Assembly: GCF_000212735.1 (NCBI RefSeq)
Contig: NC_015510.1
Span: forward strand, 2,568,315-2,632,314
Length of the DNA stretch: 64,000 nucleotides
Direction of reading: 5' to 3'
DNA from: Haliscomenobacter hydrossis DSM 1100
Lineage (GTDB): Bacteria; Bacteroidota; Bacteroidia; Chitinophagales; Saprospiraceae
Positions within the stretch are counted from its first letter, which is position 1. Each line of letters starts with the position of its first letter. The notes under the pieces were generated by a model that searched no databases, was not told the DNA's origin, and was given only the letters and a program-made list of their open reading frames with translations. The translations under genes and the position numbers were made by a program. Of this stretch, positions 8,328 to 61,322 are shown one piece after another.

Positions 8328-8419
8328 GGGTTCGGGGGTTCGGGGTTTCGATTCACCGGGCACCTCGACTTTGCTCGGCGACCGGTGAATCGAAACCCCG
8401 AACCCTCGAACCCCCGAAC
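8328..8419. repeat. Long palindrome, GTTCG-type outer arms with conserved loop
   Basis: The arms 8337-8359 and 8382-8404 are perfectly complementary over 23 bp, and the outer parts continue as repeated GGTTCGGG / CCCGAACC units; the right side carries one extra unit. The loop (8360-8381, read on the minus strand) begins TCGCCGAGC and ends CGAGGTGC, the same as in the palindromes at 21347-21437 and 61259-61322. It fills almost the whole gap between argH and the M20 gene. Confidence 0.9.
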
Positions 8420-8420
8420 T

Positions 8421-9473
8421 TTAAATCCCTTCAATCAAACGTATATAAGTGTCGATTCCCGCTCGAATTTCACTCAAGCGAATGTATTCATCTGCGGTAT
8501 GGGAACGTGCTGAATCTCCAGGGCCAATTTTTAAAGAGGGAAAAGGCATCAAAGCCTGGTCCGACAGTGTAGGTGAGCCAAAGTAAGGCAAACCCAGGTT
8601 CAATCCACTTTGTACCAAGGGGTGCTCGAGGGCGATCCCCGAAGAATTGAGTCGAAATGAACGAGGTGTTAATTCCGATTGCAGCTGCGACTGAAGGATT
8701 TCGAACACTTCTTCATTGCGGTAGCATTCGTTGGTGCGTACATCGATTACAAAGCGACAAGAATCGGGCACTACATTGTGTTGTTTGCCCGCCTCGATTT
8801 GGGTCACGGTCATTTTCACCTTGCCAAGCAAGGGCGATACCCGCTCCAGATCCATCCTGCGGATGCGTTCAATGTCTTCCAAGGCAATGTACAAGGCATT
8901 GATACCCTCCTCACGGGCGGCATGACCGGACACCCCTTTTGCTTCGCCATCAACCACCATCAAACCTTTTTCGGCAATGGCCATCTTCATTTGAGTGGGT
9001 TCGCCGACGATCGCAAAATCTACGGGGCCTAATTCGGGAATCACGCTAGCAATGCCCTGTGCTCCGGAAATTTCTTCTTCGGCTGTAGCCGCCATGATGA
9101 TGTTGACCGGGAGATCCTCACGCTCATAAAAATGCAAAAAAGTGGCGATAAGTGCCACCAATGGCCCGCCTGCATCATTGCTGCCCAGGCCATACAAAAC
9201 ATCTTCCGCTTCGATTCCAGGATGAAAGGGATCGCGCTGCCACCCGGTTGCGGGTTTGACCGTATCCATGTGTGAATTGAGTAACAGAATGGGTTTTCCA
9301 TTCTGCCAATGGCGGTTGCGTGCCCAAATATTGTTTCCTTTGCGCGTAAAAGGAATGTACCGCTTGGTCAAAAAAATGGCTACTTGTTGGGCGGCCTCGT
9401 CCTCTTCTTTGGAAAAAGAGGGCGTAGCTATCAAAATTTTCAACAAATCTATGGCCGAATCCGCTACACTCAT
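8421..9473 (-). CDS. M20 family metallopeptidase, ArgE-like N-acyl-ornithine deacylase
   Basis: A 350-aa cytosolic zinc hydrolase. Zinc-site motifs of the M20 family are present: LLNSHMDTV, GLGSNDAGG and ATAEEEISG (with the tandem Glu pair). Its place between argB and argH argues that it removes the N-acyl group from acetyl- or succinyl-ornithine (or citrulline) in arginine synthesis. Some Bacteroidota use succinylated intermediates; nothing visible here decides between acyl groups, so I leave the symbol blank. It starts at the ATG at 9473, 20 bases from a TATCTTTG box on the same strand. Confidence 0.85.
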   Translation of the reverse strand: MSVADSAIDLLKILIATPSFSKEEDEAAQQVAIFLTKRYIPFTRKGNNIWARNRHWQNGKPILLLNSHMDTVKPATGWQRDPFHPGIEAEDVLYGLGSNDAGGPLVALIATFLHFYEREDLPVNIIMAATAEEEISGAQGIASVIPELGPVDFAIVGEPTQMKMAIAEKGLMVVDGEAKGVSGHAAREEGINALYIALEDIERIRRMDLERVSPLLGKVKMTVTQIEAGKQHNVVPDSCRFVIDVRTNECYRNEEVFEILQSQLQSELTPRSFRLNSSGIALEHPLVQSGLNLGLPYFGSPTLSDQALMPFPSLKIGPGDSARSHTADEYIRLSEIRAGIDTYIRLIEGI

Positions 9474-9492
9474 TTTTTGCGTTTATCGGCGG

Positions 9493-9500
9493 CAAAGATA
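9493..9500 (-). promoter_or_regulatory. -7 box upstream of the M20/ArgE-like gene
   Basis: On the minus strand TATCTTTG (complement of 9493-9500) matches TAnnTTTG exactly and is 20 bases upstream of the start codon. No TTG at the expected spacing is seen, so this is a half match. Confidence 0.4.
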
Positions 9501-9535
9501 AGCAGAGTTGATACTTTTTTGACTTATCCTTCTGC

Positions 9536-10306
9536 TTAATCCTGATAAATCACTGTACCTCCACCATAGCATACCGACTCCGGCCCACAAATGATGACTT
9601 CCTTTACCCCTTGACGCAGGGCATCAAATGCATTGTCGAGTTTGGGCAGCATTCCGGCATATACGATTCCTTCTGCTTTGAACCGCTCATAATCTGCTGC
9701 ATTCATGCTGGGAATAACGGAGGCATCGTCCTCAGGATTGGACAAAACCCCATTCTTGTCCAGGCACAAGTATAATTTTACTTCATAAAGCGTAGACATG
9801 GCCGTGGCCAAACTTGAAGCGATAGTGTCCGCATTGGTGTTGAGTAATTGGCCCTGTCCATCGTGGGTGATGGCACAAAAAACCGGGGTAAAATCGGCAT
9901 TCAGCAACCGATGGATGGCCTGGGCGTTGACCTGATCCAAATCCCCTACAAAACCATAATCAATTTCTTTGACCGGGCGGCGATGGGCCAAAATAACATT
10001 GCCATCTGCGCCACTTAAACCTAGTGCATTGCCTCCTAAAGATTGGAGCAGCGCAACAATTTGCTTGTTAAAAAGGCCGGCATAAACCATCGTCGCTACT
10101 TCGAGAGAAGCGGCATCCGTAATGCGTCGACCATTGACCATTTGTACCGCAATGCCGAGTTTTTCACTGAGTTCAGAGGCCTTTTTGCCTCCTCCGTGTA
10201 CGATGATTTTTTTGCCTTCTTTTTGTAGAAAAGATTCCAGAATGGGTTGCAACAAGGCTAAATCATCAATGACTTTGCCGCCGACTTTCAAAATGTGCAG
10301 TGTCAT
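9536..10306 (-). CDS. argB: Acetylglutamate (or N-acylglutamate) kinase
   Basis: A 256-aa amino acid kinase family enzyme that phosphorylates N-acylglutamate in the second step of arginine synthesis. It shows the glycine-rich KVGGKVIDD start, the nucleotide/substrate loop IVHGGGKKASEL and NGRRITDAAS, and the central LSGADGNVI segment. Length is typical for ArgB. It is upstream of the M20 deacylase and argH on the same strand. Whether the true substrate is acetyl- or succinylglutamate cannot be read from the sequence. A TACCTTCG element (10338-10345, minus strand) sits 32 bases ahead and may be a weak -7 box. Confidence 0.93.
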   Translation of the reverse strand: MTLHILKVGGKVIDDLALLQPILESFLQKEGKKIIVHGGGKKASELSEKLGIAVQMVNGRRITDAASLEVATMVYAGLFNKQIVALLQSLGGNALGLSGADGNVILAHRRPVKEIDYGFVGDLDQVNAQAIHRLLNADFTPVFCAITHDGQGQLLNTNADTIASSLATAMSTLYEVKLYLCLDKNGVLSNPEDDASVIPSMNAADYERFKAEGIVYAGMLPKLDNAFDALRQGVKEVIICGPESVCYGGGTVIYQD

Positions 10307-10381
10307 CGTGCTGATGGATTAGATTAAAAAACAAGCACGAAGGTAGTGTTTTTATAGTGTGTGGAGAAGGTAAAAAAGTAA

Positions 10382-10460
10382 GGGTTCGAAGGTTCGGGGG
10401 TTCGGGAGTTCGAGGGCTAACTTTACCCTCGAACAACGAACCCTCGAACTTACGAACCCC
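10382..10460. repeat. Imperfect palindrome of GTTCG units
   Basis: The left half is a run of GGTTCG-type units (10382-10416) and the right half the complementary CGAAC units (10426-10460), around a short CTAACTTTA-like loop. The inner arms (GTTCGAGGG / CCCTCGAAC) are perfect; the outer parts are imperfect. It lies between the argB start and the stop of the giant surface protein, both on the minus strand. The conserved 22-nt loop seen elsewhere is absent. Confidence 0.8.
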
Positions 10461-10468
10461 TTAGCTAC

Positions 10469-13400
10469 TTACATCTTATTGATACGGATCAACTCTGGTG
10501 CTTGGCCGCTCCGCATTACGCGGATGAGGTAAAGGCCAGAAGGTAGTGATTTCATATCAAGTTCACCTTCGGTAACGCCTGAATCAAATTTCTCCCGGTT
10601 GATGACACGGCCATTGATGTTGAGCACCTCAACAGAAATACCAGCTTCATCTACCAATTTAGGATCTTTGAAAACCAGCCTTACTCGATCGTTCGTTGGA
10701 TTGGGATAGGCATCCGTTGATGGTACTGCCCCAAATCCTTTACAATCGTTGACATCAAAGGTTGCACCACTCAGTTCCACAAATCCACAGTATGCTCCTC
10801 CGCCCATCTTCAATTTGGCCATCAAATCGTATAAGTTGGAGAACCGAGAAACAGCCACTTCGGATGGCTTGACAATCACGGCATGAATTCGATAGGAACC
10901 AACCTGAGTAACCGTAAATTCTGGTGTACCACTAACGGATAGAATGTTCAGACTGTTTCCAGCAGTCAATACATAATCCAACGCATATGGTGCATCAAAC
11001 ATGTTCATTGAAACCACATCCGCTTTGATGGTAATGCCTCCAGGTTTGAAACATTCCATTGGCTGCGGGTTCAAACGACCAGCCATAATGGTACCACAAC
11101 CTGAACACATCCGAATGTCGAGCATGAAACCATCCTTGTCAAAATTGATACAAGGATAGGATGAAAACTCTTCTTCAAGGTCATCGATCGTAGACTGTCC
11201 AGGTGCAAGTAGATTGTCCAGGTTGACTTCTTTTGGATTATAAATCAACTGATGCAACGTGTACTTTCCAATTTTGCACAGCAAGAATTCAGACTTTTCG
11301 TAATAAACGGTGATGAGTTTGCTGTTTGGAGCACTCAACAGGTATACGATCTTCCAGCCTTGAGGAACCACAGGAGCTTTCGTCCATTGGATCTTCACAT
11401 AGGCACAAGCTCCCTGTTGGATACATGGCACATTTACGAAAGGTTTGATCATACCCAACATACCAGGAACACAACATTTACCAGTTTTAAAGCGTACACC
11501 TACATCATCCAGGTTAGCACAAATTTGGCTATTGGCGATTTGGGCTTTTAAGCCCGCAATGGTGGTTACCCCCAGTTGAATGCTGTTGATTGCAAACGTG
11601 GTCGGGTCGAACACCAGGGTATGAATCGTAAAGCTCTTCAAGCTATTTACGGTGAAGTCTGGCTGAGTGTGAATTTGCTCAATGACCTTATTGTCACCAC
11701 TAGCCAATAAGTACCGTACCTGGTAGTTCACTGGAATGATTGGTGGAATATTTGCCTGTGCCCGTAAACGAGCGGGAAGCGTCGAGATACACGTATCACC
11801 CAATGGTTTAAGTGTACCAGCAAAAGCTACACAAGTAAGCTGGCAATTGGCAATCTCAAACAATACGCCCGTATCCAAAGCAGCACAAACATCTCCGGTA
11901 ATCTGGTTGGAAATGAAGGTGAGTTGGGTGGTACCAAAGGTTACATTCAAATTCAAACTACCCGGAAGGAATACCAGCGTATGAATGCGGTAACGTCCAG
12001 CGGTGGTAACCGGGAATGATGGTGAGCTAGAAATCGCTCTGATCACGCGGTTATCGGTGCTGGTCAGGATGTACCGAACGATATATCCTGCTGGTACTAC
12101 GGGTGCAATGGTTGTCGTAGCCGTGAAGATACCCTGACCGTTCACCAGACAAGGTTCACCAACGACGACCAGTTTACCTGGCGTAACTACACAAGGCACA
12201 TAACATGGTGCCACTTCAAAGACCGCCCCGGTGGGTTCAACGCTGGCACAAATTGCACCACCGCCTTCAATAAACTGTGCCCGCAAACTGTTGATTGTGG
12301 TCACGTTCAGTTGAATATTGGCCAATGGGAAGGTCGCTTGATTGAACACCAATACGTGGATGCGGTAAGTACCCGTTTCAGCAACGCTGAAGCTTGGGTT
12401 TGTACCATAGTCGATGATAACCTTATTGGCACCTTTGGTCAGCAAATAACGAATTGCATATCCAGCAGGAACCGTACTAGTCGTAAGTGTACTGGCGGTC
12501 AGCAGCAACTCTCCATTTTTGGGCAAACAAACGTTGCCGCTTGTTTTGAGCTTACCTGCATCAGCAGCACAAACACATGACTTAATGTAGATGGATGCTC
12601 CTACCAAATCAAGTGCTGCACAAATTACGCCACCACCCTGAATCAACTTCGCATTGAGCTGTGCAACCGTAGTTGTGCCCAGGATGATGTTGCTATTCAA
12701 GGGCAGGGTATTTTGATCGTACACCAAAGTCAATACCCGGTAACTACCGGTTTGGTTGACCCCAAACTTAGGCTGAAGCTCGATCTGACGAATGACATTA
12801 TCCGCAGTAACCAATAGGTAACGGCGAGAAAATCCAGCAGGGATATAAGAGGCTCCACCAGCAGGGTGTTTTGCCGCAATCCAGGCGTAACCTATCGACA
12901 GACACTCTTCCAAATCAGGAACCAGAGTACCCGTAGTAGGATTACATACCGGTAAACAATCCTTGACCGTAAAGCAAGCGCCAATCATGTCGACATGACC
13001 ACAAACACTGCCGCCCGTTAGCCAGTAATTCAGCTGGGAAAGCTTGGTGACCCCTTTAATGATGAGGTTTGGATTGAAGGTCAAAGCCCGGAATACAAAG
13101 ACATGTATACAATACGTACCTTTCTTCTTAATCCAGAAACATTTGTCTTCAACTACATCTACAATGGTGCCCTTATCGTCAACCATCGCATAACAAACGG
13201 TAAATCCGCTCGGTGTGGATGGAGGAATAGCGATGTTTACACAAAGCTTGAAGGAATCAACCAAACAAGGTAGGTTCGTAGGAATACTTACTTTACCTGC
13301 ATCTACATTACAAACGTTGGTACAAGGCAAGACCGTGAAACATACTCCGTTCAAATCAATCCCAGCGCAGTAGTCTTTCAACCAATTGCTGAGTTGAATG

Positions 13401-18700: not shown

Positions 18701-19428
18701 GGGTTTGGAGCTGTAGGGTTCGAAGGTTCGGGGGTTCGAGGTTCGGGGGTTCGAGGTTCAGGGGTTATCCCTCGAACTCCCGAACCTTCGAACTCCCGAA
18801 CCCTAATGATCATCAACCCGTCCCGCAAGGGCAGCAAAAGGTTTTCCACCCGCGTATCGGCTTGTATTTTTTCGTTAAACTGGTGAATCAACATGGTGTC
18901 CTTGTCTTTTTTCTCGTGGGTAACTTTGCCGTCCCAGAGTACATTGTCTACGAGGATGATCCCCCCAGGGTTCATTTTGTTGATGACGAGATCATAATGT
19001 TGACTATAATCTTGTTTGCCTCCATCAATCATCACCAAATCAAAGGTGCAATCCAAACCAGCAATAATATCTTCAGCACGACCCCTGTGCAGTTGTATGC
19101 GGTCGGTCAGCCCTGCCTTTTCGACATATTTTCGAAAAATGTACTCCAGCTCGCGATTGGGTTCAATGGTGTGCAACATGCCGTCAGGAGGCAAACCTTC
19201 CGCGATACAAATCGAGCCATATCCCGTAAAAGTTCCTATTTCGAGTGCAAACTTGGGTTTGACCCAAAGGCTGATGAACCGCAACAACTGTCCCTGCAAT
19301 GGGCCGGTCATCATTTGTGGGGCCAGGGTTTTGAGGTGGGTTTCACGGTCCAACTCGTGCAAGACTTCAGAAGGAGGAGTACTATGGGCGGCACAATAAT
19401 GGTAGATGTTGCGTAAAGAACGTTGCAT
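18697..19428 (-). CDS. SAM-dependent O-methyltransferase (family 3) with palindrome-encoded C-terminal tail
   Basis: A 243-aa class I methyltransferase of the catechol/caffeoyl-CoA O-methyltransferase type. The SAM-binding motif ALEIGTFTGYGSI, the acidic LVMIDGGKQDY and the VDNVLWDGKV segment with its metal-binding Asp-Asn are all present. The family usually ends close to LPLRDGLMIIRV, about residue 210. Here some 33 further residues, rich in TPEPR and TPEPS, follow. These are translated from a GTTCG-type palindrome (18716-18803) that elsewhere in the window is non-coding. The stop then overlaps the start of the next gene (ATGA). The tail is probably disordered. Substrate is unknown; the enzyme class is secure. 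Confidence 0.9.
   Translation of the reverse strand: MQRSLRNIYHYCAAHSTPPSEVLHELDRETHLKTLAPQMMTGPLQGQLLRFISLWVKPKFALEIGTFTGYGSICIAEGLPPDGMLHTIEPNRELEYIFRKYVEKAGLTDRIQLHRGRAEDIIAGLDCTFDLVMIDGGKQDYSQHYDLVINKMNPGGIILVDNVLWDGKVTHEKKDKDTMLIHQFNEKIQADTRVENLLLPLRDGLMIIRVREFEGSGVRGITPEPRTPEPRTPEPSNPTAPNP
18716..18803. repeat. GTTCG-type palindrome inside the methyltransferase reading frame
   Basis: Left half GGGTTCGAAGG followed by further GTTCG units; right half CCCTCGAACTCC and CGAACCTTCG units ending in CCCGAACCC. The arms are imperfect but clearly complementary. The element lies entirely inside the 3' end of the O-methyltransferase gene and encodes its extra tail. Confidence 0.85.
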
Positions 19429-19437
19429 ACTAGAAAA

Positions 19438-19541
19438 ATTGAGGTTGAGGAAGGTTGAGAAAGTTGAGAAAGTTGAGCGTCGCCCGTGCTTAAGTCACTG
19501 CAGTAGCCTCAACCTTCTCAACCTTCTCAACCTCTCTCAAC
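19438..19541. repeat. GTTGAG-type palindrome between divergent genes
   Basis: The left half (19438-19477) is built of GGTTGAGAA-like units, the right half (19507-19541) of TTCTCAACC units; the loop of about 30 nt is unrelated to the 22-nt core found elsewhere. It lies between the start codons of the O-methyltransferase (minus) and the M14 peptidase (plus), so it is in a promoter region rather than at a 3' end. Confidence 0.85.
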
Positions 19542-19620
19542 CAACAAAAAGCCAAAGTTCTAAAAGTTTTTTGTACTTTTCCTCACTTCCATACCTTGTT
19601 TAAATTGAACTTGAACAACC

Positions 19621-21357
19621 ATGAAAAAATCGACCCGGCTTGGTTTTATCCTGAGCCTGCTTTTACCTTTCGGCCTACTTGCCCAATACCCAACCCGTTT
19701 TGAGACCAGCAATGGCACCCAAACCCCAACCTACGAAGAGGGCATTGCCTGGTACCAACGCATGGCTACTGATTTTAAAGAAATCGACATGCAAGTAAAA
19801 GGGCCTACCGATAGTGGTTTCCCACTTCATCTCGTGATGTATTCCAAAAACCGCAAATTTGACCTTGCCAAACTCAAAGCCCAGGGCAAAGCCATTTTTT
19901 TCATCAACAACGCCATCCACCCCGGTGAACCCGATGGTGTAGATGCTTCGATGATGCTCTTGCGAGATCTTGCCCTGCACCCCGAGCGTTACCCGATGTT
20001 GGATAGTGTGGTGGTGGCACTGATCCCATTTTACAACATCGGCGGTGCGCTCAACCGCAGTTCGACCAGTCGGGTCAGCCAAAATGGCCCCGAAGCTCAT
20101 GGTTTTCGTGGCAATGCCCGCAATTTCGACCTCAACCGTGATTTTATCAAAGCGGATACCCGCAATGCCCAAAGTTTTATAGCCATCTTTCAGGAACTCG
20201 ATCCCGATTTGTTCATCGATACCCACGTCAGCAATGGCGCCGACTACCAGTACACCATGACTTTTTGTTATGCACAGGAGGAAAAACTGGGGGGCGTTTT
20301 AGGGCCTTTCCACAAAGGAACTTTCCTGCCTTTTCTGTATGAGCACATGAAAACCGCAGGCTTTGAGGCTACACCATACGTCAATGCTTTTGGGCAAACG
20401 CCGGATAAAGGTTTTAGTCAGTTTGCCGATTGGCCGCGCTATTCCACGGGTTATGCGGCACTGTTCCACACCTTTGGCATGATGACGGAAACCCACATGC
20501 TCAAACCTTATGCCCAGCGGGTGAAGTCAACTTATGCACTATTAGATGGGGTGTTGAAATTCTTGGGGCAGCACCGGGCGCGTTTGTTGGCCTTGCGGAA
20601 AGCCACCAAGGAAGCGGTCAAAACCCAAACGGAATTTCCCCTGACCTGGAAACTCAACCGTGAAAAGTTTTCAGAAATTGAGTTCAAAGGTTATGAACCC
20701 GAGTATCCGATCAGTGCCATCAGCGGGCAAAAACGCCTGTACTACAATCGAGACAAGCCACTGAACAAAATTGTCCCTTTTTATGACCACTACGATGTGG
20801 AGCTAAAAGCCAGCAAGCCCTCGGCTTACATCATTCCTCAAGGTTGGCACAATGTCATTGATCGACTCAAAATGAATGGGGTACAAATGCGGCAATTGAC
20901 CCAGGATAGTACGCTTGAATTGGAGGTTTACATCATTGATGCCTATAAAAGCGCAGCTAATCCCTACGAAGGACACCATCAAAATACCAGCGTAGACTTG
21001 CATACCGAACGCCACAAAATAGCCTTGCGCAAAGGGGATTATTTCATTCCCCTCAATCAATGGCGCAATCGTTTTATCGTAGAGGTTCTGGAACCTCAAG
21101 GGGTAGATTCTTACTTCCGCTGGAATTTTTTCGATACCATTTTGCAGGAAAAAGGAGGGTATTCGTCTTACGTATTTGAAGACCTGGCGGCGGAGTTGCT
21201 CCAGAAAGACCCGGCCCTAAAGCAAAAACTGGAGGATAAGAAAAAGGCGGACAAGGCTTTCGCGGATAGTGCTTCGGCGCAGTTGGATTTTGTGTACCGC
21301 AATTCGATCTATTGGGAAAAGGAGTACATGCGGTATCCGGTGTATCGGGTGAGGTGA
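19621..21357 (+). CDS. Secreted M14 family zinc carboxypeptidase
   Basis: A 578-aa exported peptidase with a signal peptide (MKKSTRLGF... ending LLAQ). The M14 zinc motif HxxE is His100 and Glu103 in AIHPGEPDG; the third histidine is probably in LFIDTHVSNG (about residue 202), and the substrate-binding Asn-Arg pair in FDLNRDFIK. The catalytic domain spans about 35-320; the remaining ~250 residues form a beta-rich region without T9SS tail, so it may be periplasmic. Family members trim C-terminal residues from peptides or peptidoglycan stems. The last codons and stop lie within the left arm of a long palindrome. Confidence 0.88.
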   Translation: MKKSTRLGFILSLLLPFGLLAQYPTRFETSNGTQTPTYEEGIAWYQRMATDFKEIDMQVKGPTDSGFPLHLVMYSKNRKFDLAKLKAQGKAIFFINNAIHPGEPDGVDASMMLLRDLALHPERYPMLDSVVVALIPFYNIGGALNRSSTSRVSQNGPEAHGFRGNARNFDLNRDFIKADTRNAQSFIAIFQELDPDLFIDTHVSNGADYQYTMTFCYAQEEKLGGVLGPFHKGTFLPFLYEHMKTAGFEATPYVNAFGQTPDKGFSQFADWPRYSTGYAALFHTFGMMTETHMLKPYAQRVKSTYALLDGVLKFLGQHRARLLALRKATKEAVKTQTEFPLTWKLNREKFSEIEFKGYEPEYPISAISGQKRLYYNRDKPLNKIVPFYDHYDVELKASKPSAYIIPQGWHNVIDRLKMNGVQMRQLTQDSTLELEVYIIDAYKSAANPYEGHHQNTSVDLHTERHKIALRKGDYFIPLNQWRNRFIVEVLEPQGVDSYFRWNFFDTILQEKGGYSSYVFEDLAAELLQKDPALKQKLEDKKKADKAFADSASAQLDFVYRNSIYWEKEYMRYPVYRVR

Positions 21358-21437
21358 GAATTTTAGGAATGTTCCTTTCGGTCGCCGAGCGAAGTCGAGG
21401 TGCCGAAAGGAACATTCCTAAAATTCTTACCTCACCC
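21347..21437. repeat. Long palindrome with conserved loop spanning the end of the M14 gene
   Basis: The arms 21347-21381 and 21403-21437 are 35 bp with a single mismatch; the 21-nt loop begins TCGCCGAGC and ends CGAGGTG. The left arm includes the last codons and stop of the M14 peptidase gene, and the right arm ends 4 bases before the stop of the convergent AAA ATPase gene. Apart from the conserved loop, the arm sequence (with TTTTAGGAATGTTCC) is unlike the other palindromes here. Confidence 0.92.
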
Positions 21438-21441: not shown

Positions 21442-23004
21442 TTACACTTCCTCGGCTACCCCCATCTGCGCCAACACCATCGCCGGATTCAACGCCGCAG
21501 CCGGGTTGTGCGCGGCCGTAAACGCAGGTGCAGCCGCCAAACGCTCCCGGTTGGCGCGTAGTTGATCAATAGCTTGGGCGAAGTACTCAAAGGGAGCACG
21601 TACGGGTTGTTCCTTGGCCACATCAAAACCGTGCAAATTGCGGGCATCGGCCACGATGCGCTTGAGGTCGGCACCCGAACAATCGTAGGTCAATTCCGCC
21701 AGGTGGCTCAATTCTCCAGCCTTGAGCTGAAGTACACTGCCCGTGATGATTGATTGCAACATGGCCTGCCGCGCCGTCGCATTGGGCAATTTCATTTCCA
21801 GCCACAATTCCACCCGACCACTACGGATCAAGGCAGGGGGCAAGCTACCGATGTTCATCGCGGTAAACATCACCGTCACCTGAGTATTCGACCTGGATTC
21901 CAAACCGTCAAGCATGGTGAGCAAATAGCGGTAAAGACCAAACTCGTCCTGGTTCTCAAACAAGACATCGCAATCGTCGATGAACAGGATGCTGGGCGCG
22001 TTGTGTTTTGCGGCCTCAAAAATCTGGCTCACTTTGTGGTAAAACTGATCGGTACCACTGATCACCGTACCGTCCAGCAAGAAAAATTTGCTGTGTAGGC
22101 GGTGCGCCAAGGCTCGACCAATCGAGGTTTTACCCGTACCAGGAGGACCGTACAACAAGACCCCACGTTTGGCGCGAATGCCCAGGTCTTTGGCCAAATC
22201 GTCGCGCTCCATCGGCACGATGATGTCGATCTCCAATTGGCGGATGACTTCTTCTACGCCGTACAAATCGGAAAAATCCATGGGATCCACTTCAGAAGTA
22301 TCCACGTTGCTGAACAAGGCATAGGTTTCCAAAAACTGAATTAAAAATGGGGTATCAAAAGTACCTTCTGCTGGCAACAATTGACAAGCATAGGCCATTT
22401 GAATGGCGTTGAGGTGGGGGGCAAAAACGTACACCCGCTCAAAGTCGACATTCGATAAGCGACCATTGCTCAGGGTATTGAATAAAAAAGCGTGATCTTC
22501 CGCCGTGAACTCAATCAAATTGACCTTTTGAACAAATTCATTCAAGGGATCAACATAATGCCCGTGTTGGCTGCTCAACACCAAACGTTTGCCGCTTTGC
22601 TCCAACCAACGCAAGATGCCATCCAATGCAGCGATCAAGACGCCCGGACGAGCTTTTCCATAACAGCTTTCCACCATATTACAAACGTGGTGGAAATCAT
22701 CGACGATGACCAGGTCATGCGCCTTGAGGGCTTTGAGCAAGGTTGCGGCAATGCCTTCCTCGATGGCCAGGGGGTGAAAGGTTTGGATTTCGTCAAAAAA
22801 ATCGGCCAGGCGTAAAAGCTGTCCTCCTGTTTCAAGAGCCAGGCGCTTGAGCATGAAGCTGCGGCCGTGGCCATAATTTACACCAAGTCCACATAAGTTA
22901 TGTTGCTGGAGCTTGCCGAGCAATTGCTGATAAGCGACTTCCTGGGTAGGGCTTAAAGGGGGTAGTTCTACGGTTTTTACATTCAAGGGGCGAAGCGTTT
23001 GCAT
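21442..23004 (-). CDS. AAA-family ATPase with a degenerate first and an intact second ATPase module
   Basis: A 520-aa cytosolic ATPase. The second module (about 245-470) is a classical CDC48/FtsH-type AAA core: Walker A GPPGTGKTS near residue 285, Walker B ILFIDDCDVLF near 340, and a sensor-like NIGSLPPALIRSGR with an arginine finger. The N-terminal module (about 25-220) keeps the fold's order but not the nucleotide motif: GVNYGHGRSF replaces Walker A and LVIVDDFHHV resembles Walker B. The C-terminal ~50 residues are alanine-rich. No protease domain is attached, so it is probably a remodelling ATPase. It is the only gene on its strand between convergent and unknown neighbours; partner unknown. 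Confidence 0.85.
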   Translation of the reverse strand: MQTLRPLNVKTVELPPLSPTQEVAYQQLLGKLQQHNLCGLGVNYGHGRSFMLKRLALETGGQLLRLADFFDEIQTFHPLAIEEGIAATLLKALKAHDLVIVDDFHHVCNMVESCYGKARPGVLIAALDGILRWLEQSGKRLVLSSQHGHYVDPLNEFVQKVNLIEFTAEDHAFLFNTLSNGRLSNVDFERVYVFAPHLNAIQMAYACQLLPAEGTFDTPFLIQFLETYALFSNVDTSEVDPMDFSDLYGVEEVIRQLEIDIIVPMERDDLAKDLGIRAKRGVLLYGPPGTGKTSIGRALAHRLHSKFFLLDGTVISGTDQFYHKVSQIFEAAKHNAPSILFIDDCDVLFENQDEFGLYRYLLTMLDGLESRSNTQVTVMFTAMNIGSLPPALIRSGRVELWLEMKLPNATARQAMLQSIITGSVLQLKAGELSHLAELTYDCSGADLKRIVADARNLHGFDVAKEQPVRAPFEYFAQAIDQLRANRERLAAAPAFTAAHNPAAALNPAMVLAQMGVAEEV

Positions 23005-47220: not shown

Positions 47221-47390
47221 AAAAGTTTAGCACCTCGCCTACGGCGAGCCTATTTTTATTTTTTCTCCCGCAGATTGCGCAGATTTCCGCAGATTAATGT
47301 CCTTTTTGAAGAAAATCTGCGGAAATCTGCGCAATCTGCGGGAGACAATTCATAAGATTCACTCCGACGAAGTCGGGGTGCTAAACTTTT
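47221..47390. repeat. Nested palindrome: GTGC-core outer repeat around a CAGATT-type inner palindrome
   Basis: The outer arms AAAAGTTTAGCACC (47221-47234) and its exact complement (47377-47390) are 14 bp. Next to them are small hairpins CTCGCC-tac-GGCGAG and CCGAC-gaa-GTCGG; the latter followed by GGTGC resembles the conserved loop of other palindromes. Inside is a perfect 31-bp inverted repeat (47265-47295 / 47314-47344) of CAGATT units with an 18-nt loop. Confidence 0.9.
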
Positions 47391-51507: not shown

Positions 51508-51644
51508 GCCAAGAGCGATTCAAAAATTAGCACAAGGGACACAAAGAAAAGCACAAGGTGCACAAAGTCGCGCATGTCTGGTGACGTTTGTGCACCTTGT
51601 GCTTTTCTTTGTGTCCCTTGTGCTAATAAATGTCGCTTTGGGAA
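51508..51644. repeat. CACAAGG-type palindrome with 40-bp perfect arms
   Basis: Arms 51527-51566 and 51587-51626 are perfectly complementary over 40 bp and built of CACAAGG/CACAAAG units; the loop is 20 nt. Outer flanks (CCAAGAGCGA and TGTCGCTTTGG) extend the pairing imperfectly and match the outer flanks of the element at 44240-44434. It lies between the convergent GH92 and FMN-binding genes. Confidence 0.95.
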
Positions 51645-52536: not shown

Positions 52537-52560
52537 TCGAATAAGCAAGAAGAGAAGACT

Positions 52561-53148: not shown

Positions 53149-53161
53149 TCGCATAAGATCG

Positions 53162-53191: not shown

Positions 53192-53223
53192 GCTTATTCA
53201 AGTTCAAAATAAATCATTCACCT

Positions 53224-53742: not shown

Positions 53743-53745
53743 GGA

Positions 53746-54291
53746 CTATATATTAAAATTGAAGTCGTCGTCGTCTCCTCCTTTTTCTTTGCGCAGGCGC
53801 TCAGGACTCACGCGGAAAGTATATTCCCGATCAACGGTATACCCAAAAGTCGCGTGGGGCAACAAACGCATCAGAAACTTGCTAACCAGTTTTAATTTAC
53901 TAGCTTGCATACCTACGGTAAAATCACTGCCGTCGGCGAGCTTGAAATGCAAAGTGCCTTTGCGGAAAAGGTGAATGCCAAAAGGGGTGCGCTCGGTGAT
54001 GACGGAATAAACCCACACAATATGTTGGGGTTGATACCGCAGATAATTGAGCAGTAAGTGGTTGTCGATGCGCAAATTAGCCGTGGTGTCCACCACCAAT
54101 TTGCCTCCAACCATACTCAATCCCAAACCAATAATGGAAAAAACTACGTTCATCTTAAACGTCAACACGCACAGTCCAGAACCAAAAGCCAACAATACAA
54201 GGCTCATGGCAAACTGACCACGCAGTTCGCGTAAAATGGCGTTGCGTAAGTTGCGCATCGCCGGGTGACGATAAAGAGTTTCTCGGTTCAA
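53746..54291 (-). CDS. Hypothetical membrane-anchored protein, 181 aa
   Basis: Unrecognised. Two close membrane segments (about residues 28-47 and 49-67) are followed by a soluble beta-rich C-terminal part (LLNYLRYQPQHIVWVYSVI, TLHFKLADGSDFTVGM) that has the alternation of a PH-like or small barrel domain, and an acidic tail (GGDDDDFNFN). Probably an inner-membrane protein with a cytosolic domain. It has one of the best promoter matches in the window and converges on the previous gene with a 3-base gap. Confidence 0.75.
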   Translation of the reverse strand: MNRETLYRHPAMRNLRNAILRELRGQFAMSLVLLAFGSGLCVLTFKMNVVFSIIGLGLSMVGGKLVVDTTANLRIDNHLLLNYLRYQPQHIVWVYSVITERTPFGIHLFRKGTLHFKLADGSDFTVGMQASKLKLVSKFLMRLLPHATFGYTVDREYTFRVSPERLRKEKGGDDDDFNFNI

Positions 54292-54331
54292 GATGATGAA
54301 ATTAAAAAATAAACAACAAATTGTTGTTCAG

Positions 54332-54361
54332 CAAAGTTATTTTGCTGTATATTTAACGCAA
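54332..54361 (-). promoter_or_regulatory. Promoter for the 181-aa membrane protein gene
   Basis: On the minus strand TTG (complement of 54359-54361) and TAACTTTG (complement of 54332-54339) are exactly 19 bases apart. The -7 box ends 40 bases before the start codon at 54291. Confidence 0.65.
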
Positions 54362-54431
54362 AAATACCACTCTTTTCGTTCTTTTGAACTGATTTGCAGT
54401 AGTTTTTAATATTTTTTTAACAACGGAGCAC

Positions 54432-56342
54432 ATGGCACAACAGCAAGTGAGTTACAACGAGGACAATATCCGCTCTCTGGATTGGAAAGAACATATTCGC
54501 CTGCGCCCAGGAATGTACATTGGCAAGCTAGGTGATGGTGCTTCTTCGGATGACGGAATCTATATTTTGATCAAAGAAGTAGTCGATAACTGCATCGATG
54601 AATTCGTCATGGGACATGGCAAGGAGATTCAGTTAAAGATCGAAGACAATACCGCTGAAATCCGCGATTATGGCCGGGGTATCCCCCTGGGCAAAGTAAT
54701 CGATTGTGTTTCCAAGATCAATACCGGGGGCAAATACGACTCCAAAGCCTTCAAAAAATCGGTGGGTTTGAATGGGGTGGGTACCAAAGCAGTCAATGCC
54801 CTTTCCGATTATTTTATGGTCAAAGCCGTGCGCGATGGGCAGATGAAAATAGCCGAATTTGAAAAAGGGGAATTGCTCAAAGAACATCCGATCAAAAAAA
54901 CCGATGAACCCAACGGTACTTTCGTTACTTTCCGGCCAGATAATGTCATTTTTAAAAACTACCGCTTCCAAAAAGACCACCTGGAAAACCAGCTTTGGAA
55001 TTACGCTTACCTCAACTCTGGTTTAAAGCTCAATTACAACGGCAACATCATCACCTCCAAAAATGGTTTGTTGGATTTGCTGGAACGCAAAAGTAAAAAC
55101 GAAGACCTGCGTTACCCCATCATTCACCTCAAAGCGGATGATTTGGAAGTTGCCATGAGTCACGGCAACCACTATGGAGAACAGTACTATTCCTTCGTGA
55201 ACGGCCAAAACACGACCCAGGGCGGCTCCCACCTCAGCGCATTCAAAGAAGCAGTGGTGGACACGGTGAAGAAGTTTTACAATGCCAATTACGACCGTAC
55301 CGATATCCTGGGCTCAATTGTGGCCGCGGTGAGTATCCGGGTAGAAGAACCGGTGTTTGAATCACAAACCAAAACCAAACTCGGCTCGGTCAATATTGCC
55401 CCCGAAGGGCAAACGATCCGCACCTTTGTGGGCAATGCCATCAAGGAGCACCTGGACAACCACCTGCGCAAACATCCCGAAATTGCCGACGCCCTGAAAA
55501 AGCGGATTCTGCAATCGGAACGAGAGCGCAAAGAAATTGCCGACATCAAAAAACTGGCCAACCAACGGGCCAAAAAAGCCAATCTGCACAACAAAAAGCT
55601 GCGCGATTGTCGCTTACATTTCAACGACTCGGCCAAAAAGGTAGCCGAGGACATGCGCTTGGCCACTACCTTGTTCATCACCGAAGGGGATTCAGCTAGT
55701 GGTTCCATTACCAAAGCACGGGATGTACAAACCCAGGCCATTTTCAGTTTGCGGGGAAAACCCTTGAACTGTTATGGTTTGACCAAAAAAACGGTCTACG
55801 AAAACGAGGAATTTAACCTCCTCCAACACGCCCTCAATATTGAAGATGGTATGGACGACCTGCGCTACAACCGGGTGGTCATCGCCACCGATGCCGACGT
55901 AGACGGCATGCACATCCGCTTGTTGATGTTGACTTTTTTCCTCCAGTTTTTTCCGGAATTGGTGCGGGGCAATCACTTGTACATCCTGGAGACGCCACTG
56001 TTCCGGGTACGCGACAAGCAGCAGCGCTTTTACTGCTACTCCGAAACCGAAAAAAGAGCGGCCATCAAAAAATTACGCGGCAAACCGGAAATCACCCGTT
56101 TCAAAGGTCTGGGCGAAATTTCTCCTGATGAATTCTCGGCTTTTATCGGTCCCGATATCCGCCTGGAACCCGTTATCATCAGCGACAATACCGACATCGA
56201 CGATGTCCTTTCCTACTATATGGGCAAAAACACCCCCGAACGCCAGGATTTCATCATTGGCAATTTGCGGGTGGAATTGAACGATGTGGAAACGGAAATT
56301 GAAGAGGCACCAAAATTGGAAATGGTAGAAGTAGAGGATTGA
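54432..56342 (+). CDS. parE: DNA topoisomerase IV subunit B (type IIA topoisomerase ATPase subunit)
   Basis: A 636-aa type IIA topoisomerase B subunit. The GHKL ATPase domain has [20 protein letters not shown] and GRGIPLG; the transducer has QTKTKLG; the TOPRIM domain has Glu418 in [10 protein letters not shown] and the DADVDG acidic cluster (Asp487, 489 and 491) binding magnesium. The C-terminal [10 protein letters not shown] is the usual end of the TOPRIM part. With ParC it decatenates chromosomes. The length fits ParE rather than the longer GyrB of many species, but the two are hard to tell apart without a tree, and no parC neighbours it. The next gene starts within its stop codon. Confidence 0.85.
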
Positions 56343-57187
56343 TGAATATCTTATCCTACCTGCCCGAGATTTCATACCTCATTCTAAGCCTGCTGGTATT
56401 GGACTTACTAGGCAGCGGCCTGTTCCGTTTGATCGTGCGGCCGCGTGCTAAGCGCTATTGGGAAGCTGCTGAAGAGCCTTTACTTCCGCAAAAATTGGCA
56501 CAAAATCAATTTCCCCCACAGTGGCTACAATACCTTGAAAAAAGTGGAGCCACCAAGGCGGAGCCTTCCGGCAAAGTACGCCTCCGCATGAAAGGGGTAG
56601 TTCGGACCAAGCCTTCTGGCAAATGGCACCCCTCTGAGTGCAAAGCGTTTTTTACCAGCAAGCCTTTGACGATGGTTTGGTACGCGGACATCACGCGGGC
56701 TTTTTTGGTTTCCATCAAAGCCACCGAGCAGTTTGCGCAGGGTCAGGGGTTCAGCACCCGCTGGATTTTGTCAACATTTCCTTACCGTTGGAAATCAGTT
56801 GGCCTTCCACAATCAATGGCTCAGCGCAATGCTTTTTATAACTTGGCGGCAGCAGTTTGGCAGCCTCAATGGTGGTGGTTTTATGCCCTGGATTGGCGCG
56901 AAACAGCAGATGATTTACTTCCTTTCACCTGTACAATTGATGATCAAGTCTTCTTTTTAAAAGCGCAGTTCAACCCCGCTCATCAGCTCACCGAATTGAG
57001 TCATTGGCAGGAAAATTGGCAGGAGATTAACACAAAATTGGTCTTCAGTGATTACCAAATGGTGCAAGAACAATCAATCCCTTTACAAGTGGAAGTGCTC
57101 GAAAAAGATGCCAACGGGCTGTTGTTTGTACACATCGACTTACAGGTAACAGACGTAGTGCAAAAAGGGCCCTATGCGTGGTGGTAG
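56342..57187 (+). CDS. DUF6544-like membrane-anchored protein
   Basis: A 281-aa protein. The start is the ATG at 56342, which shares one base with the TGA of the topoisomerase gene, so translation is probably coupled; a TTG just before it would add only one residue. One N-terminal membrane segment (about 3-27) is followed by a soluble domain with MKGVVRTKPSGKWHPSECKA and TSKPLTMVWYADI, which resembles the start of the DUF6544 family. The central FALDWRE-like and WQPQWWWFYALDW region is tryptophan-rich. Function unknown. Its tie to parE may be only transcriptional. Confidence 0.65.
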   Translation: MNILSYLPEISYLILSLLVLDLLGSGLFRLIVRPRAKRYWEAAEEPLLPQKLAQNQFPPQWLQYLEKSGATKAEPSGKVRLRMKGVVRTKPSGKWHPSECKAFFTSKPLTMVWYADITRAFLVSIKATEQFAQGQGFSTRWILSTFPYRWKSVGLPQSMAQRNAFYNLAAAVWQPQWWWFYALDWRETADDLLPFTCTIDDQVFFLKAQFNPAHQLTELSHWQENWQEINTKLVFSDYQMVQEQSIPLQVEVLEKDANGLLFVHIDLQVTDVVQKGPYAWW

Positions 57188-57191
57188 GCCA

Positions 57192-57791
57192 TTATTTAAA
57201 CAAATCAGACAACTTCACTTCAAACCCTGGCAACACGGCGCTGCCAGTAAGCACCTCATCAAACGGCACTTCGGTTTCGCTACCATCCGCCTGATAAACC
57301 GTAGTTTTTTGTAAAAAAGGATCAATCAACCAGGCCAGCTGGCAACCACACTCCATAAATTCGCCAATTTTTTCTTGGATCGGCTTCAAGCTGTCACTTT
57401 TTGAACGAATTTCGACGACAAAGTCAGGGACGATCGGGGCAAATGATTCCTGTTCGTCTGGTGTCAGGGAATTCCATTTCTCGTGGGTCATCCAGGCAGC
57501 GTCCGGTCCATAGGTGGCACCATTGGGCAATTTGAATCCTGCTGAAGAATCGAAGACTTCTCCCCTATTGTCTTTTAAGTTCCATATACCTAATGCCAGG
57601 TTAAATTTAGCATTCCTAATTCCAGTTTTAGATCCAGTTGGCGACATAATGATGATTTCTCCTGCGGCGTTGCGTTCGATTTTCAAACCTCGGTTCAAGC
57701 GGCAAAATTCAAAAAATTCGTCATCACTCATGCCCTTTTCTGGAAAGGCGAGTGCCAGGACTCCTTCAAATTGATTGGCAACGGCGGTCAT
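57192..57791 (-). CDS. Uma2 (DUF820) family PD-(D/E)XK nuclease-like protein
   Basis: A 199-aa soluble protein of the Uma2 family. The nuclease-like core is visible in GPDAAWMTHEKW, PDFVVEIRSKSDSL (acidic residue plus Glu-x-Arg instead of Glu-x-Lys) and KIGEFMECGCQLAWLIDP. The ERNAAGEIIIMSPTGSKTG turn is characteristic. These proteins are abundant in cyanobacteria and some Bacteroidota, often many copies per genome; activity has rarely been shown. It converges on the DUF6544-like gene with only 4 bases between stops. No toxin-antitoxin partner is seen. Confidence 0.85.
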   Translation of the reverse strand: MTAVANQFEGVLALAFPEKGMSDDEFFEFCRLNRGLKIERNAAGEIIIMSPTGSKTGIRNAKFNLALGIWNLKDNRGEVFDSSAGFKLPNGATYGPDAAWMTHEKWNSLTPDEQESFAPIVPDFVVEIRSKSDSLKPIQEKIGEFMECGCQLAWLIDPFLQKTTVYQADGSETEVPFDEVLTGSAVLPGFEVKLSDLFK

Positions 57792-57933
57792 GGTCTAGAC
57801 TTTTTACAAAAATAGGCAATGTGACGCACTTTTACAAGGCTAAGCTCGGTAGTGCATTGGCCAAACAGCGATAAGTACGTTCTCTCTGAACAAAAGGTAC
57901 TAATCATTTTCTATTTTCGTTTTTCATTGTACT

Positions 57934-59889
57934 ATGCGCTACCATCTCATCCTATTTTTTGTGTTTCAACTCCTGGTCCAGGCAAGTTCTGCCTTTGGCC
58001 AAAGCTATACCACCCGTACTACCCTGAGTCCCAAATTGCAAAAGCAGTTTGAAAAAGTGCGGGCCCAGGTAGATGCCAAAGCCTTTACCGAAGCCAAAAC
58101 GGGTTTGAACAAAATCCTGCAAGAAGACCCCAACTTCATCGACGGCATCATTTGGCTGGCCAACATTCATTATGATGAACAGGACTACCCACAAGCCATC
58201 AAATCTTACCAGGCTGCCCTGCAACTGGGTCCCGATTATCAACCCCGTTTGTACTACCAATTGGCACTGGCTCAAATGCGCGCTGACGATTTTGCGGGTT
58301 CCATCCCTACCTGGAATCAATTTTTGCAGCGCGAAAAAAAGAATCCCGAGCTCATTCAACGCGCCCAGCGCAACCGCGCCGATGCCGTTTTTGCTGCCGA
58401 GGCCATCAAAAACCCACTACCCTTTCAGCCCGAAAAATTACCACCCAGCATCAACAGCCCCGAGCACGCGGAGTTTTTACCTTCGCTGAGCGCCGACGGG
58501 CAGACGATGGTTTTTAGCCGCCTGGTGCAAGGGCAAGAAGATTTTTTTGTGAGTAAAAAAAAGGAGGGCATTTGGCAAACCGCTGAACCCCTAGTGGAAC
58601 TCAATACGCCCTTTAATGAAGCGGGACATTGTCTCTCCCCCGACGGCAAAACCTTGTACTACACCGGTTGCAACCAGGCCAAAAGTTTAGGTGGTTGTGA
58701 CATTTATGTGTCCTATTATCGCGATAGTAGCTGGACGGCCCCGGCCAATCTTGGTGCACCGATCAATTCCGGGGCATGGGAATCACTACCTTCCATCTCC
58801 GCTGCTGGCCGGGCCATGATTTTTGCCTCGGATCGAGCGGGAGGCGTAGGTGGCCGCGACCTTTGGTTGAGCCGCCAATTGCCCGATGGCAAATGGTCAG
58901 CACCCCGCAATTTAGGCGCGAAAGTGAATACCAAGGGCGATGAACAGGCCCCGTTTCTACACCCCGATGGTGCCACCTTGTACTTCATGTCGAATGGACA
59001 TCCCGGTATGGGGGGCTTCGATTTGTACCTGACCAGACTAGACAGTGCGGGCAATTGGAGTGTCCCGCAAAACCTGGGTTACCCCATCAACACCCGCGCC
59101 AACGAAGGGGCCTTGGCGGTGAGTCTGGACGGTAGCCGTGCCTGGTTTTCAACAGATATGGAAGATACCCGCAATGCGGAAGGCATCAAATTGGGTCGTT
59201 CAGACATTTACAGTTTTATCCTTCCCGAGATCAATCGTCCCAAAATGGTCACTTTTGCCCGGGGCAAGGTGTTTGATTTACAAACCCAAACACCACTTGC
59301 GGCCGAAGTAGAAGTCCTTGAACTTGCCTCCAGAAAAGTTTTTTACAAAGCCAAAGTGGCCGAAGATGGTACTTTTTTGGTATGCCTGCCCCTCGGCCAA
59401 AACTATGCCCTCAATGCCTCTTTTCCTGGCTATACTTTTTATTCCGCCAATTTTGCCCTCGCCGAAGTACGCAGTGCAGATCAGGCTTATGAGCTGAGCG
59501 CGGGTTTACAGGCCTTACCTCAAACCAGCGACCTGGTAGCAAACAAAGACCAAGCGCCCGTGGTGTTGCGCAATGTGTTTTTTGAAACGGCTTCAGCGGC
59601 CTTGCGGCAGGAATCTGGACCCGAGTTGGATCACCTGGCGGATTTGCTGAATCAGAACCCAAACTTACGCATTCAAATCAATGGCCATACCGACAATGTA
59701 GGTACTGATGCCGACAACCTGCGGCTTTCGGAGCAGCGTGCCAAAGCAGTGTACACCTACCTGGTTGGCAAAGGGATCGCTGCGGAACGCCTGGCGTACA
59801 AAGGTTTTGGAGAAACCCAGCCCATTGCTGACAATAATACAGAAGAAGGGCGGAAGGTAAATCGACGGACGGAATTTGTGGTGTTGTAA
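57934..59889 (+). CDS. PorE-like TPR / PD40 propeller / carboxypeptidase-regulatory-like / OmpA protein
   Basis: A 651-aa exported protein (signal peptide ending SAFGQ). Domains in order: TPR (about 35-145), a PD40/WD40-like propeller (~175-430, with SADGQTMVFSR, SPDGKTLYYTG, RAMIFASDRAGG and HPDGATLYFMSN), a carboxypeptidase-regulatory-like beta sandwich (~440-520), and an OmpA C-terminal domain (~545-651) with INGHTDNVGTDADNLRLSEQ and NRRTEFVV, which binds peptidoglycan. This order matches PorE of the T9SS machinery, which is a lipoprotein; here no lipobox cysteine is seen. It may therefore be a periplasmic paralogue anchored only to peptidoglycan. A weak TATTTTCG (57912-57919) precedes the start. 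Confidence 0.88.
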   Translation: MRYHLILFFVFQLLVQASSAFGQSYTTRTTLSPKLQKQFEKVRAQVDAKAFTEAKTGLNKILQEDPNFIDGIIWLANIHYDEQDYPQAIKSYQAALQLGPDYQPRLYYQLALAQMRADDFAGSIPTWNQFLQREKKNPELIQRAQRNRADAVFAAEAIKNPLPFQPEKLPPSINSPEHAEFLPSLSADGQTMVFSRLVQGQEDFFVSKKKEGIWQTAEPLVELNTPFNEAGHCLSPDGKTLYYTGCNQAKSLGGCDIYVSYYRDSSWTAPANLGAPINSGAWESLPSISAAGRAMIFASDRAGGVGGRDLWLSRQLPDGKWSAPRNLGAKVNTKGDEQAPFLHPDGATLYFMSNGHPGMGGFDLYLTRLDSAGNWSVPQNLGYPINTRANEGALAVSLDGSRAWFSTDMEDTRNAEGIKLGRSDIYSFILPEINRPKMVTFARGKVFDLQTQTPLAAEVEVLELASRKVFYKAKVAEDGTFLVCLPLGQNYALNASFPGYTFYSANFALAEVRSADQAYELSAGLQALPQTSDLVANKDQAPVVLRNVFFETASAALRQESGPELDHLADLLNQNPNLRIQINGHTDNVGTDADNLRLSEQRAKAVYTYLVGKGIAAERLAYKGFGETQPIADNNTEEGRKVNRRTEFVVL

Positions 59890-59935
59890 CACCGATCAGT
59901 CCTGATTTTGTAGCTACAGTACATAAAAAACCCTG

Positions 59936-61240
59936 CTATTTCCCCTGCGCCTTCTCCCAACGAATTTTCGCCACCAAATAATTGTACCAGGCACTCAGCG
60001 AATTGTTCTCCGCTTCGCGTAAGGAAAACTCGGTATTCAGCAACTCCGAAAAAAGCAAATTGCCTCCGGCATACCGCTCCTTTTCCAATTCGAGAATTTT
60101 GCGGGCTGTAGCTAGGTTCTGCTGTGCGCTCTGCATTTGTACCTGAGCATTTTTTAAAGCTGTTTGGGTGGAGGCCATTTCGTAGTTGATGTCCTGTTGG
60201 ATGCGTTCGAGATTTTGCTTGCTCACTTGGTTTTGCAGCTTGAGTACTTCGAGGTTTTTGTTGCGCAAGTTGCCATCGAAGAGGGTAAAGCTGGTTTGTA
60301 AGCCCACGTAAACCGCAGGGAACCATTTTTCCCAGACCGCAAAATTGTTGCTCAGGTGCTGCACCGAACCATTGGCAATGGCGCTCAAATTGGGGCGGTA
60401 TTGCTCCTTGATGCGTTGCTGATCGAGCAGGTTGATGGCCAAACGCTGTTGTTCTTCCTTAAGTTCCCAACGTTGACCAGCGTTGGCAGGGTTGGGAAGT
60501 TCCGCGGTAGGTGGTGGAATATCCCCCACTTGCAGCGGGGTATCCAGGGGCAAACCGACCTGGTAGGCCAGGTTTTGCCGACTCAAGTCCAGGCTGTTCT
60601 GCGCCTGGTCGCGGGCGGCGCGGTTGTTGTCCACTTCCAGTTGGCTCCGTTGAACCTCGCTGGCCAGCAAGGCTCCGGCGTTGAAGCGGTTCTGACTGAT
60701 TTGTAGCAGCGATTCTGCGCGTTTGAATTTTTCCTCGGCCAATTTGAGTTGTTCTTGCTTCAAAAACACATCGTACCAGGCCTCGGCAATGGTGAGGCGG
60801 TAGTTGACTTTTTGTTTTTCCAGGGTGGCCTCTTGCAAACTCCGCTGGCCATCCGCCAGTAGCTGATCCGTGCGCAGGGTCGGATCGATCAAGGAGTAGG
60901 ACACATTCAATGCTCCCGTAATGTTGAACGTGGTGCCGAAACGCAGTTTTTGATCCTCGCCTGTGGCAGGGCCACCAAATGCTCCAGCGGGAATGATGGT
61001 CGTAGGTAATACCAGGTTGCTGCGCAATTCGCCGTTGGCGCTCACGACCGGGCTGCGGCGGGAATCTACCTTATCCCGTTCCCGCTGAGCCAATTGGATT
61101 TGCAGGACCTGATTTTTGAGTTCAAGGTTATTGCTCTGCCCCAGAGAGATGGCTTCTTCAAGACTGAGCACGCGTGGATTTTGGCCAAAGGCCAGCCCTA
61201 CACTTAGAAAGAAAAGTATCGTAAAAAGTGGAGATTTCAT
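59936..61240 (-). CDS. TolC-family outer membrane efflux protein
   Basis: A 434-aa outer-membrane channel subunit. I start it at the ATG at 61240 because the signal peptide begins there (MKSPLFTILFF... ending AFGQ); the longer frame reads through a palindrome. The mature protein begins VLSLEEAISLGQSNNLELKNQ, the usual TolC/OEP start, and has two long helical hairpin repeats (e.g. ESLLQISQNRFNAGALLASEV and ARKILELEKERYAGGNLLF at equivalent places). It is the last gene of the operon DevA-DevB-DevC-TolC, so it should form the outer-membrane exit of that ABC exporter. Confidence 0.92.
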   Translation of the reverse strand: MKSPLFTILFFLSVGLAFGQNPRVLSLEEAISLGQSNNLELKNQVLQIQLAQRERDKVDSRRSPVVSANGELRSNLVLPTTIIPAGAFGGPATGEDQKLRFGTTFNITGALNVSYSLIDPTLRTDQLLADGQRSLQEATLEKQKVNYRLTIAEAWYDVFLKQEQLKLAEEKFKRAESLLQISQNRFNAGALLASEVQRSQLEVDNNRAARDQAQNSLDLSRQNLAYQVGLPLDTPLQVGDIPPPTAELPNPANAGQRWELKEEQQRLAINLLDQQRIKEQYRPNLSAIANGSVQHLSNNFAVWEKWFPAVYVGLQTSFTLFDGNLRNKNLEVLKLQNQVSKQNLERIQQDINYEMASTQTALKNAQVQMQSAQQNLATARKILELEKERYAGGNLLFSELLNTEFSLREAENNSLSAWYNYLVAKIRWEKAQGK

Positions 61241-61241
61241 G

Positions 61242-61322
61242 GTTGAGGAGGTTGAAGAGTTGAGGAGGTTACACTTCGGTCGCCGAGCGGAGCCGAGGTG
61301 CCCGAAGTGCAACCTTCTCAAC
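61242..61322. repeat. GTTGAG-type palindrome with conserved loop between TolC and permease genes
   Basis: Arms 61259-61279 and 61302-61322 pair with two mismatches in 21; the outer left part adds GGTTGAGGAGG units. The 22-nt loop (61280-61301) begins TCGCCGAGC and ends CGAGGTGC, as in the palindromes at 8337-8404 and 21347-21437. The right arm runs into the stop of the permease gene. Confidence 0.9.

Follow-up and report, generated by a model that had tools for sequence, protein, structure and literature searches.

A REP-like 24-nt unit at the tips of gene-end palindromes in Haliscomenobacter hydrossis, whose place may be inherited and whose sequence may be replaced

In Haliscomenobacter hydrossis, a REP-like 24-nt unit stands at the tip of long palindromes that follow stop codons, and the reading put forward here, which has about as good a chance of being right as of being wrong, is that the place of these palindromes is inherited and their sequence replaced. 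The conserved loop would form one layer, a short hairpin unit (GGTCRCCGAGCGNAGYCGAGGTGY) of a widespread, REP-like kind characterized by GAGCGNAGYCGA; the second layer would be a long palindrome directly past the stop codon at many genes of the genus, in a place that tends to be common to the species, with arms and tip that are replaced and species-typical. In the species studied, the tip unit would have come to occupy the centres of about a hundred palindromes. The window, which is the whole stretch of DNA that was analysed, comprises 64,000 nucleotides of H. hydrossis DSM 1100, and its features are collected in Table 1.

The tip unit and its arms

Three palindromes of the window share an exact 21-nt core, CGCCGAGCNNAGYCGAGGTGC, for which the chance expectation is 0.02 per window. 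In the inverted-repeat list of the window, palindrome 1 has 37-nt arms with 92% complementarity and palindrome 2 has 35-nt arms with 97%; palindrome 3 is absent from that list, yet it folds at -38.4 kcal/mol (z -6.4), the fold z of palindromes 1 and 2 being -10.2 and -13.1. The original prediction of three palindromes with a common loop is therefore borne out by arm complementarity, folding and the shared exact core. A "related form" that it placed at 47364-47380 does not match the core even at 3 mismatches and lies beside, not within, the core-less palindrome at 47261-47348. The window has no Rfam match at the gathering score.

Table 1. Palindromes of the window and their tip units, in window positions
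Feature	Position	Strand	Description
Palindrome 1	8328..8413	no strand	GTTCG-family arms around core; edge 7 nt from stop codon of gene 8421-9473(-)
Tip unit of palindrome 1, 24 nt	8360..8383	(-)	core 8360-8380 + GGT
Core-less palindrome	10397..10460	no strand	GTTCG-family arms
Core-less palindrome	18718..18793	no strand	GTTCG-family arms
Core-less palindrome	19443..19542	no strand	GTTGA-family arms; many similar copies in sister species G001, G003
Palindrome 2	21347..21437	no strand	unique arms; right edge 4 nt from stop codon of 21442-23004(-)
Tip unit of palindrome 2, 24 nt	21380..21403	(+)	core 21383-21403
Core-less palindrome	47261..47348	no strand	CGCAGATT-type arms
Core-less palindrome	51526..51627	no strand	41-nt arms, 100% complementary, between two convergent ORFs
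Palindrome 3	61259..61322	no strand	GTTGA-family arms; abuts stop codon of gene 61322-62443(-)
Tip unit of palindrome 3, 24 nt	61278..61301	(+)	core 61281-61301

Genome-wide, the core occurs 113 times at up to 2 mismatches, compared with 0 for a reversed-pattern control, and four congeners hold 7, 0, 4 and 5 copies at the same threshold; arm and position counts rest on the 102 of the 113 copies that were read. The full 24-nt unit consists of the core and the three bases preceding it: positions -4 to -1 are CGGT in 83/102 copies and TGGT in 12/102, and the bases 3' of the core are variable. The core starts with CRCC in nearly all 102 copies, and its changes fall at positions N and Y, at the final base and in one stem pair, in a sample that is biased because the search pattern left N and Y free and allowed up to 2 mismatches elsewhere. 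This stem pair is intact in 102/102 copies (GT 58, AT 30, CG 9, GC 4, TA 1). Published work on C(GNA)G-type mini-hairpins exists, and a C(GNA)G mini-hairpin with sheared G-A pairs was considered for the core on the strength of which positions vary; this idea of our own was set aside, being unsupported by folding because the bare core folds, as DNA and as RNA, no better than shuffles. All 81 copies with no more than 1 mismatch are on chromosome C1; the plasmid-size contigs C2-C4 have none.

The unit is central in a long palindrome at 84 of the 102 copies (arm score at least 12), and the within-locus median score is 20. For 600 random between-locus arm pairs the median is 1, and the 100 pairs that reach at least 12 do so largely because GTTCG-type arms fit one another (GTTCG arms from different loci have a median mutual score of 16 over 109 pairs). 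By arm type, the 102 copies comprise 43 GTTCG, 20 GTTGA and 39 unclassed (31 "unique" and eight intermediate). Arms are thus complementary within a locus, as predicted, but the accompanying claim that they are unrelated between loci holds for a minority only. Two families account for 63/102 copies, an arm sharing that the prediction had associated with an ordinary REP and that also bears on the arms part of a MITE definition; within the window, palindromes 1 and 3 belong to these families and only palindrome 2 is unique.

Long arms are lacking at 18/102 copies, of which eight lie in one array (L078, 354-356 kb), three stand in tandem at L042 and seven are scattered (L032, L073 twice, L079, L080, L083 and L084). 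The array (C1 352,600-357,200) is made up of a CCCC..GGGG variant of the core, which occurs in either orientation. At L042 (C1 near 7,664,342-7,664,386, outside the window), two tandem 24-nt units are followed by a third with a further mismatch, and the repeat is probably translated, since the units are in frame within a long ORF, shortly past a signal-peptide-like stretch. By eye, a 24-nt direct repeat of the unit is also present in several other genomes.

Armless copies, which the prediction had taken as evidence against it if they prevailed, are a minority in H. hydrossis but the majority in other genomes (48/53). A 25-nt pattern, YGGTCRCCGAGCGNAGYCGAGGTGY, was found in named genomes in 54 stretches with 53 distinct flanks, and long arms are present at 5 of these 53 foreign places, these five belonging to one Saprospiraceae and one Chitinophagales MAG; other Saprospiraceae/Chitinophagales records with the pattern have no long arms (L338, L369). 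In the two-layer reading, the unit is armless elsewhere because it would be a tip in pre-existing palindromes. The 12-nt heart of the core, GAGCGNAGYCGA, is common but patchy across 395 Bacteroidota genomes, with 195 copies in H. hydrossis, 197, 164, 139, 102 and 100 in other genomes, and few or none in many. Among copies abroad (55 distinct flanks, a non-random sample of Bacteroidota copies), four flanking positions pair at 0.76-0.82 compared with 0.41-0.60 when dealt anew, suggesting that short matched arms are general. Some copies in other Bacteroidota read CGTC-ATTCC-GAGCGAAGCCGA-GGAAT (L187). In the cyanobacterium Nostoc sp. FACHB-280 (L329, L330, L340, L372, L375, L377), the core lacks long arms and has a shared context, TGCTCCCGGT-like before it and TGCTCCCTCTGCGG-like after it.

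Palindromes can likewise lack the core. In a 132-kb sample chosen regardless of the core (the window and L087-L090), a palindrome is present at 23 of 85 gene 3' ends, six with the core and 17 without, a convergent palindrome being liable to count twice; the value for shuffled segments is 0/150. The tip unit and the gene-end palindromes are two separable layers.

Gene ends in H. hydrossis and its sister species

The 84 core palindromes lie between tandem genes in 58 cases, convergent genes in 16 and divergent genes in one, the remaining nine being unclear or inside an ORF according to a crude ORF caller. The arm edge falls within 10 nt of the upstream stop codon at 74/99 gene ends (convergent sites counted twice) but within 10 nt of the downstream start at only 5/58. 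At tandem sites the core is sense in 34 cases and antisense in 18, a weak bias (p 0.036). Within 12 nt 3' of the palindrome, TTTT is present in just 9/84 cases, and so an intrinsic terminator consisting of a GC-rich hairpin and a U-tract was rejected.

Orthologous sites were identified for 30 of the 102 loci, 77 in total (20 in G001, 3 in G002, 28 in G003 and 26 in G004). A core-less palindrome is present at 54 of these sites, a core palindrome at 2, and 5 are of other kinds; the 16 empty sites are spread over 10 loci, including L020, L057 and window locus 1. A palindrome is present in at least one relative for 35/39 genes that have one in H. hydrossis but for only 6/43 genes that do not (Fisher p 2.4e-12), most of the control genes being located next to core loci; among the genes of the window, the corresponding values are 6/6 and 2/14.

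Arms and tip mostly differ at these sites. Matched gene stretches of G001, G003 and G004 are mostly ~70-90% identical to those of H. hydrossis, and the arms of orthologous palindromes are 0.59-0.75 identical (class means), compared with 0.70 for unrelated arms of this genome; any excess of identity within loci over that between loci is partly built in because the inverted repeats were picked for within-locus identity. At the site of palindrome 1, G001 and G004 have directly adjoining genes, and a GGTTCCAGG palindrome is present in G003; at that of palindrome 2, three relatives have GATTTCGG palindromes. At L018, where H. hydrossis has GTTCG arms, the core palindrome of G004 has GTTGA arms, and at L064 the core of G001 is on the opposite strand between other arms. 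The GTTCG-arm motif GGTTCGRGGGTTCG occurs 707 times in H. hydrossis and 0 times in the four congeners. Conversely, GGTTCCARGGTTCCA occurs 155 times in G003 (reversed-pattern control, 16), 15 times in G004, once in H. hydrossis and not in G001 or G002, and the tip GACAAGGNCNTTGTC occurs 44 times in G001, 52 in G003, 28 in G004, once in H. hydrossis and not in G002. Arms and tips are species-specific, and the place of a palindrome appears to outlive its sequence, given that gene ends of sister species often have different arms and a different tip.

It is tentatively suggested, with somewhat less than even confidence, that gene ends in the genus inherit a slot for a palindrome, and that arm motif and tip are rewritten genome-wide, separately for each species, while the arms stay matched. 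If true, this would require some active mechanism for writing inverted copies at gene ends and would amount to concerted evolution of dispersed palindromes.

The absence of GGTTCGRGGGTTCG from the congeners and the 16 empty sites would also be expected if arms and tip together formed a single palindromic mobile element of MITE- or REP-like type, whose arms vary greatly and which inserts beside stop codons. This explanation is possible but unlikely. At L047, L055 and L074, the arms of the best relative are 0.92-0.96 identical to those of H. hydrossis but the tip differs, several of the relatives' tips being of the GACAAGG..TTGTC kind, and twelve arms of the unique type, searched together, have no clear third copy in the genome (off-locus matches E at least 0.3, with the shortest arms too short to score). 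Copying of arms from elsewhere in the genome was rejected on the same result. The original prediction had offered, as a second option, insertion of the core into existing palindromes, which is better supported than triggering by the core: the similar arms and different tips at L047, L055 and L074 agree with this, but the whole palindromes at sites that are empty in relatives do not.

Two further arrangements were observed in the sister species. At the orthologues of L010 in G001 and G003 (L225, L226), a GTAGAGACGC palindrome, simple in G004, apparently has a second palindrome nested in its middle, which may reflect insertion at a palindrome centre without the core. A similar element of ~130 bp, with TAATCCTTTG in both arms, is present in G003 at the L020 site and in G004 at the L014 site, and thus at two different gene ends in two species.

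A third explanation is that the palindromes are functional 3'-end hairpins, either terminators or mRNA stabilisers, whose arms are kept matched by compensatory selection rather than by copying and in which any strong hairpin can replace another. The prevalence of tandem and convergent sites over divergent ones, the abutted stop codons and the place common to the species all accord with such a function; it is nevertheless improbable as the whole explanation, given the scarcity of four-T runs, the 44-nt arms of 100% identity at L062, which exceed the need of a hairpin, and the 16 empty sites, at which the palindromes are evidently dispensable. Selection and copying could operate together.

Origin and matching of the arms

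Local origin of the arms is clear at one locus only. At L043, two relatives have a palindrome-free junction; in H. hydrossis, the ancestral T-run of this junction lies in the left arm, and the A-run of the right arm is its inverted copy. For palindrome 2 the case is less clear: the first 11 nt of its left arm are the 3' end of gene 19621-21357(+) and are conserved in G003 and, with less fidelity, in G004 and G001; 10/11 of these nucleotides are matched in the right arm. Scores for homology extending into the left arm, used only for arm types other than GTTGA because shared GTTGA arms inflate the null, are 9-11 at L043, 5-7 at palindrome 2 and 6 at L085 but only 2 at L040, 1 at L079 and 0-3 at L020; L040 resembles a local inverted copy by eye, but its formal score is low. 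The empty orthologous sites show that most other arms are new at their site. The predicted origin of arms as inverted local DNA stands for L043, and less firmly for palindrome 2, but not for most arms at empty sites, which are non-local.

The prediction further held that the core is the trigger for an inverted duplication of the flanking DNA. At L043 and palindrome 2, one arm does hold ancestral local DNA and the other its inverted copy; however, long arms are present at so few foreign places of the 25-nt pattern, core-less palindromes are so much the commoner at gene ends in this genome (17 compared with six), and arms at empty sites are so often non-local that this mechanism is very improbable.

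Between homologous stems of relatives, 15 matched double changes were counted over 433 stem pairs (15 species pairs, which overlap), compared with ~1.6 expected; one-sided changes are more numerous, at 55. In the two-layer reading, fold-back (template-switch) copying during replication would both create the arms and keep them matched, and tips may spread through exchange between palindromes that share arms or because the unit enters hairpins at their tip. Monttinen and Loytynoja (2022; PMC8794818) describe template switches in which an inverted copy builds or repairs a stem in a single step. Matched double changes are common to those hairpins and the present palindromes; the former were studied in RNA genes, whereas the latter are dispersed gene-end palindromes with a shared tip and species-specific arms.

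Relation to known repeats and significance

Broadly defined, the unit is a REP; it is closest to the CGTC-tagged REPs reported from Bacteroidetes (Di Nocera, De Gregorio and Rocco 2013; PMC3733652), but it lacks their tag and stem. As far as the consulted portions of that paper describe them, both are short hairpin repeats with matched stem changes, are located mostly 3' of genes and have no dedicated transposase. CGTC-tagged REPs, however, have an unpaired CGTC (TGTC, CCTC) tag and a stem of 8-9 bp that starts with AT and closes on a loop of 4-5, whereas the unit has CGGT or TGGT, has no AT start and lies inside palindromes with arms far longer than such stems (PMC3733652, same portions).

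GTAG REPs and REPINs are likewise dispersed, multi-copy, intergenic hairpins, but their arms are conserved, whereas here the tip is conserved and the arms vary; the GTAG tag is absent at the 102 core copies read. The genome has seven PF01797 (Y1) matches, and the nearest core is 20 kb away among the 100 cores listed, so that the suggested link to a REP-associated Y1/RAYT transposase found no counterpart within 20 kb of those cores. Among other core-rich genomes, G006 (197 motif copies) and G033 (139) have no PF01797 match and G076 (164) has one weak match, while G020, G306 and G015 (100, 102 and 67 copies) have 6, 4 and 7. Mobilisation by RAYT was set aside on the missing tag, the lack of a nearby Y1 gene and the two core-rich genomes without PF01797. 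Cyanobacterial STRR are species-typical short tandem units in intergenic DNA; the units here are also species-typical, with a period of 8 or ~9, but are laid out as two matched arms. No account of a tip unit in species-specific gene-end palindromes was found in the openly licensed literature.

The customary picture of REP-type repeats is one of fixed hairpins that a transposase moves. Here it is the hairpin's location that tends to be retained, whereas arms and tip are exchanged, and no transposase is evident. The palindromes would act, if at all, at mRNA 3' ends. Gene ends shared between sister species are natural replicates for the birth, matching and replacement of palindromes in bacterial chromosomes, and they also allow one to ask whether a hairpin adjacent to the stop codon matters to the mRNA.
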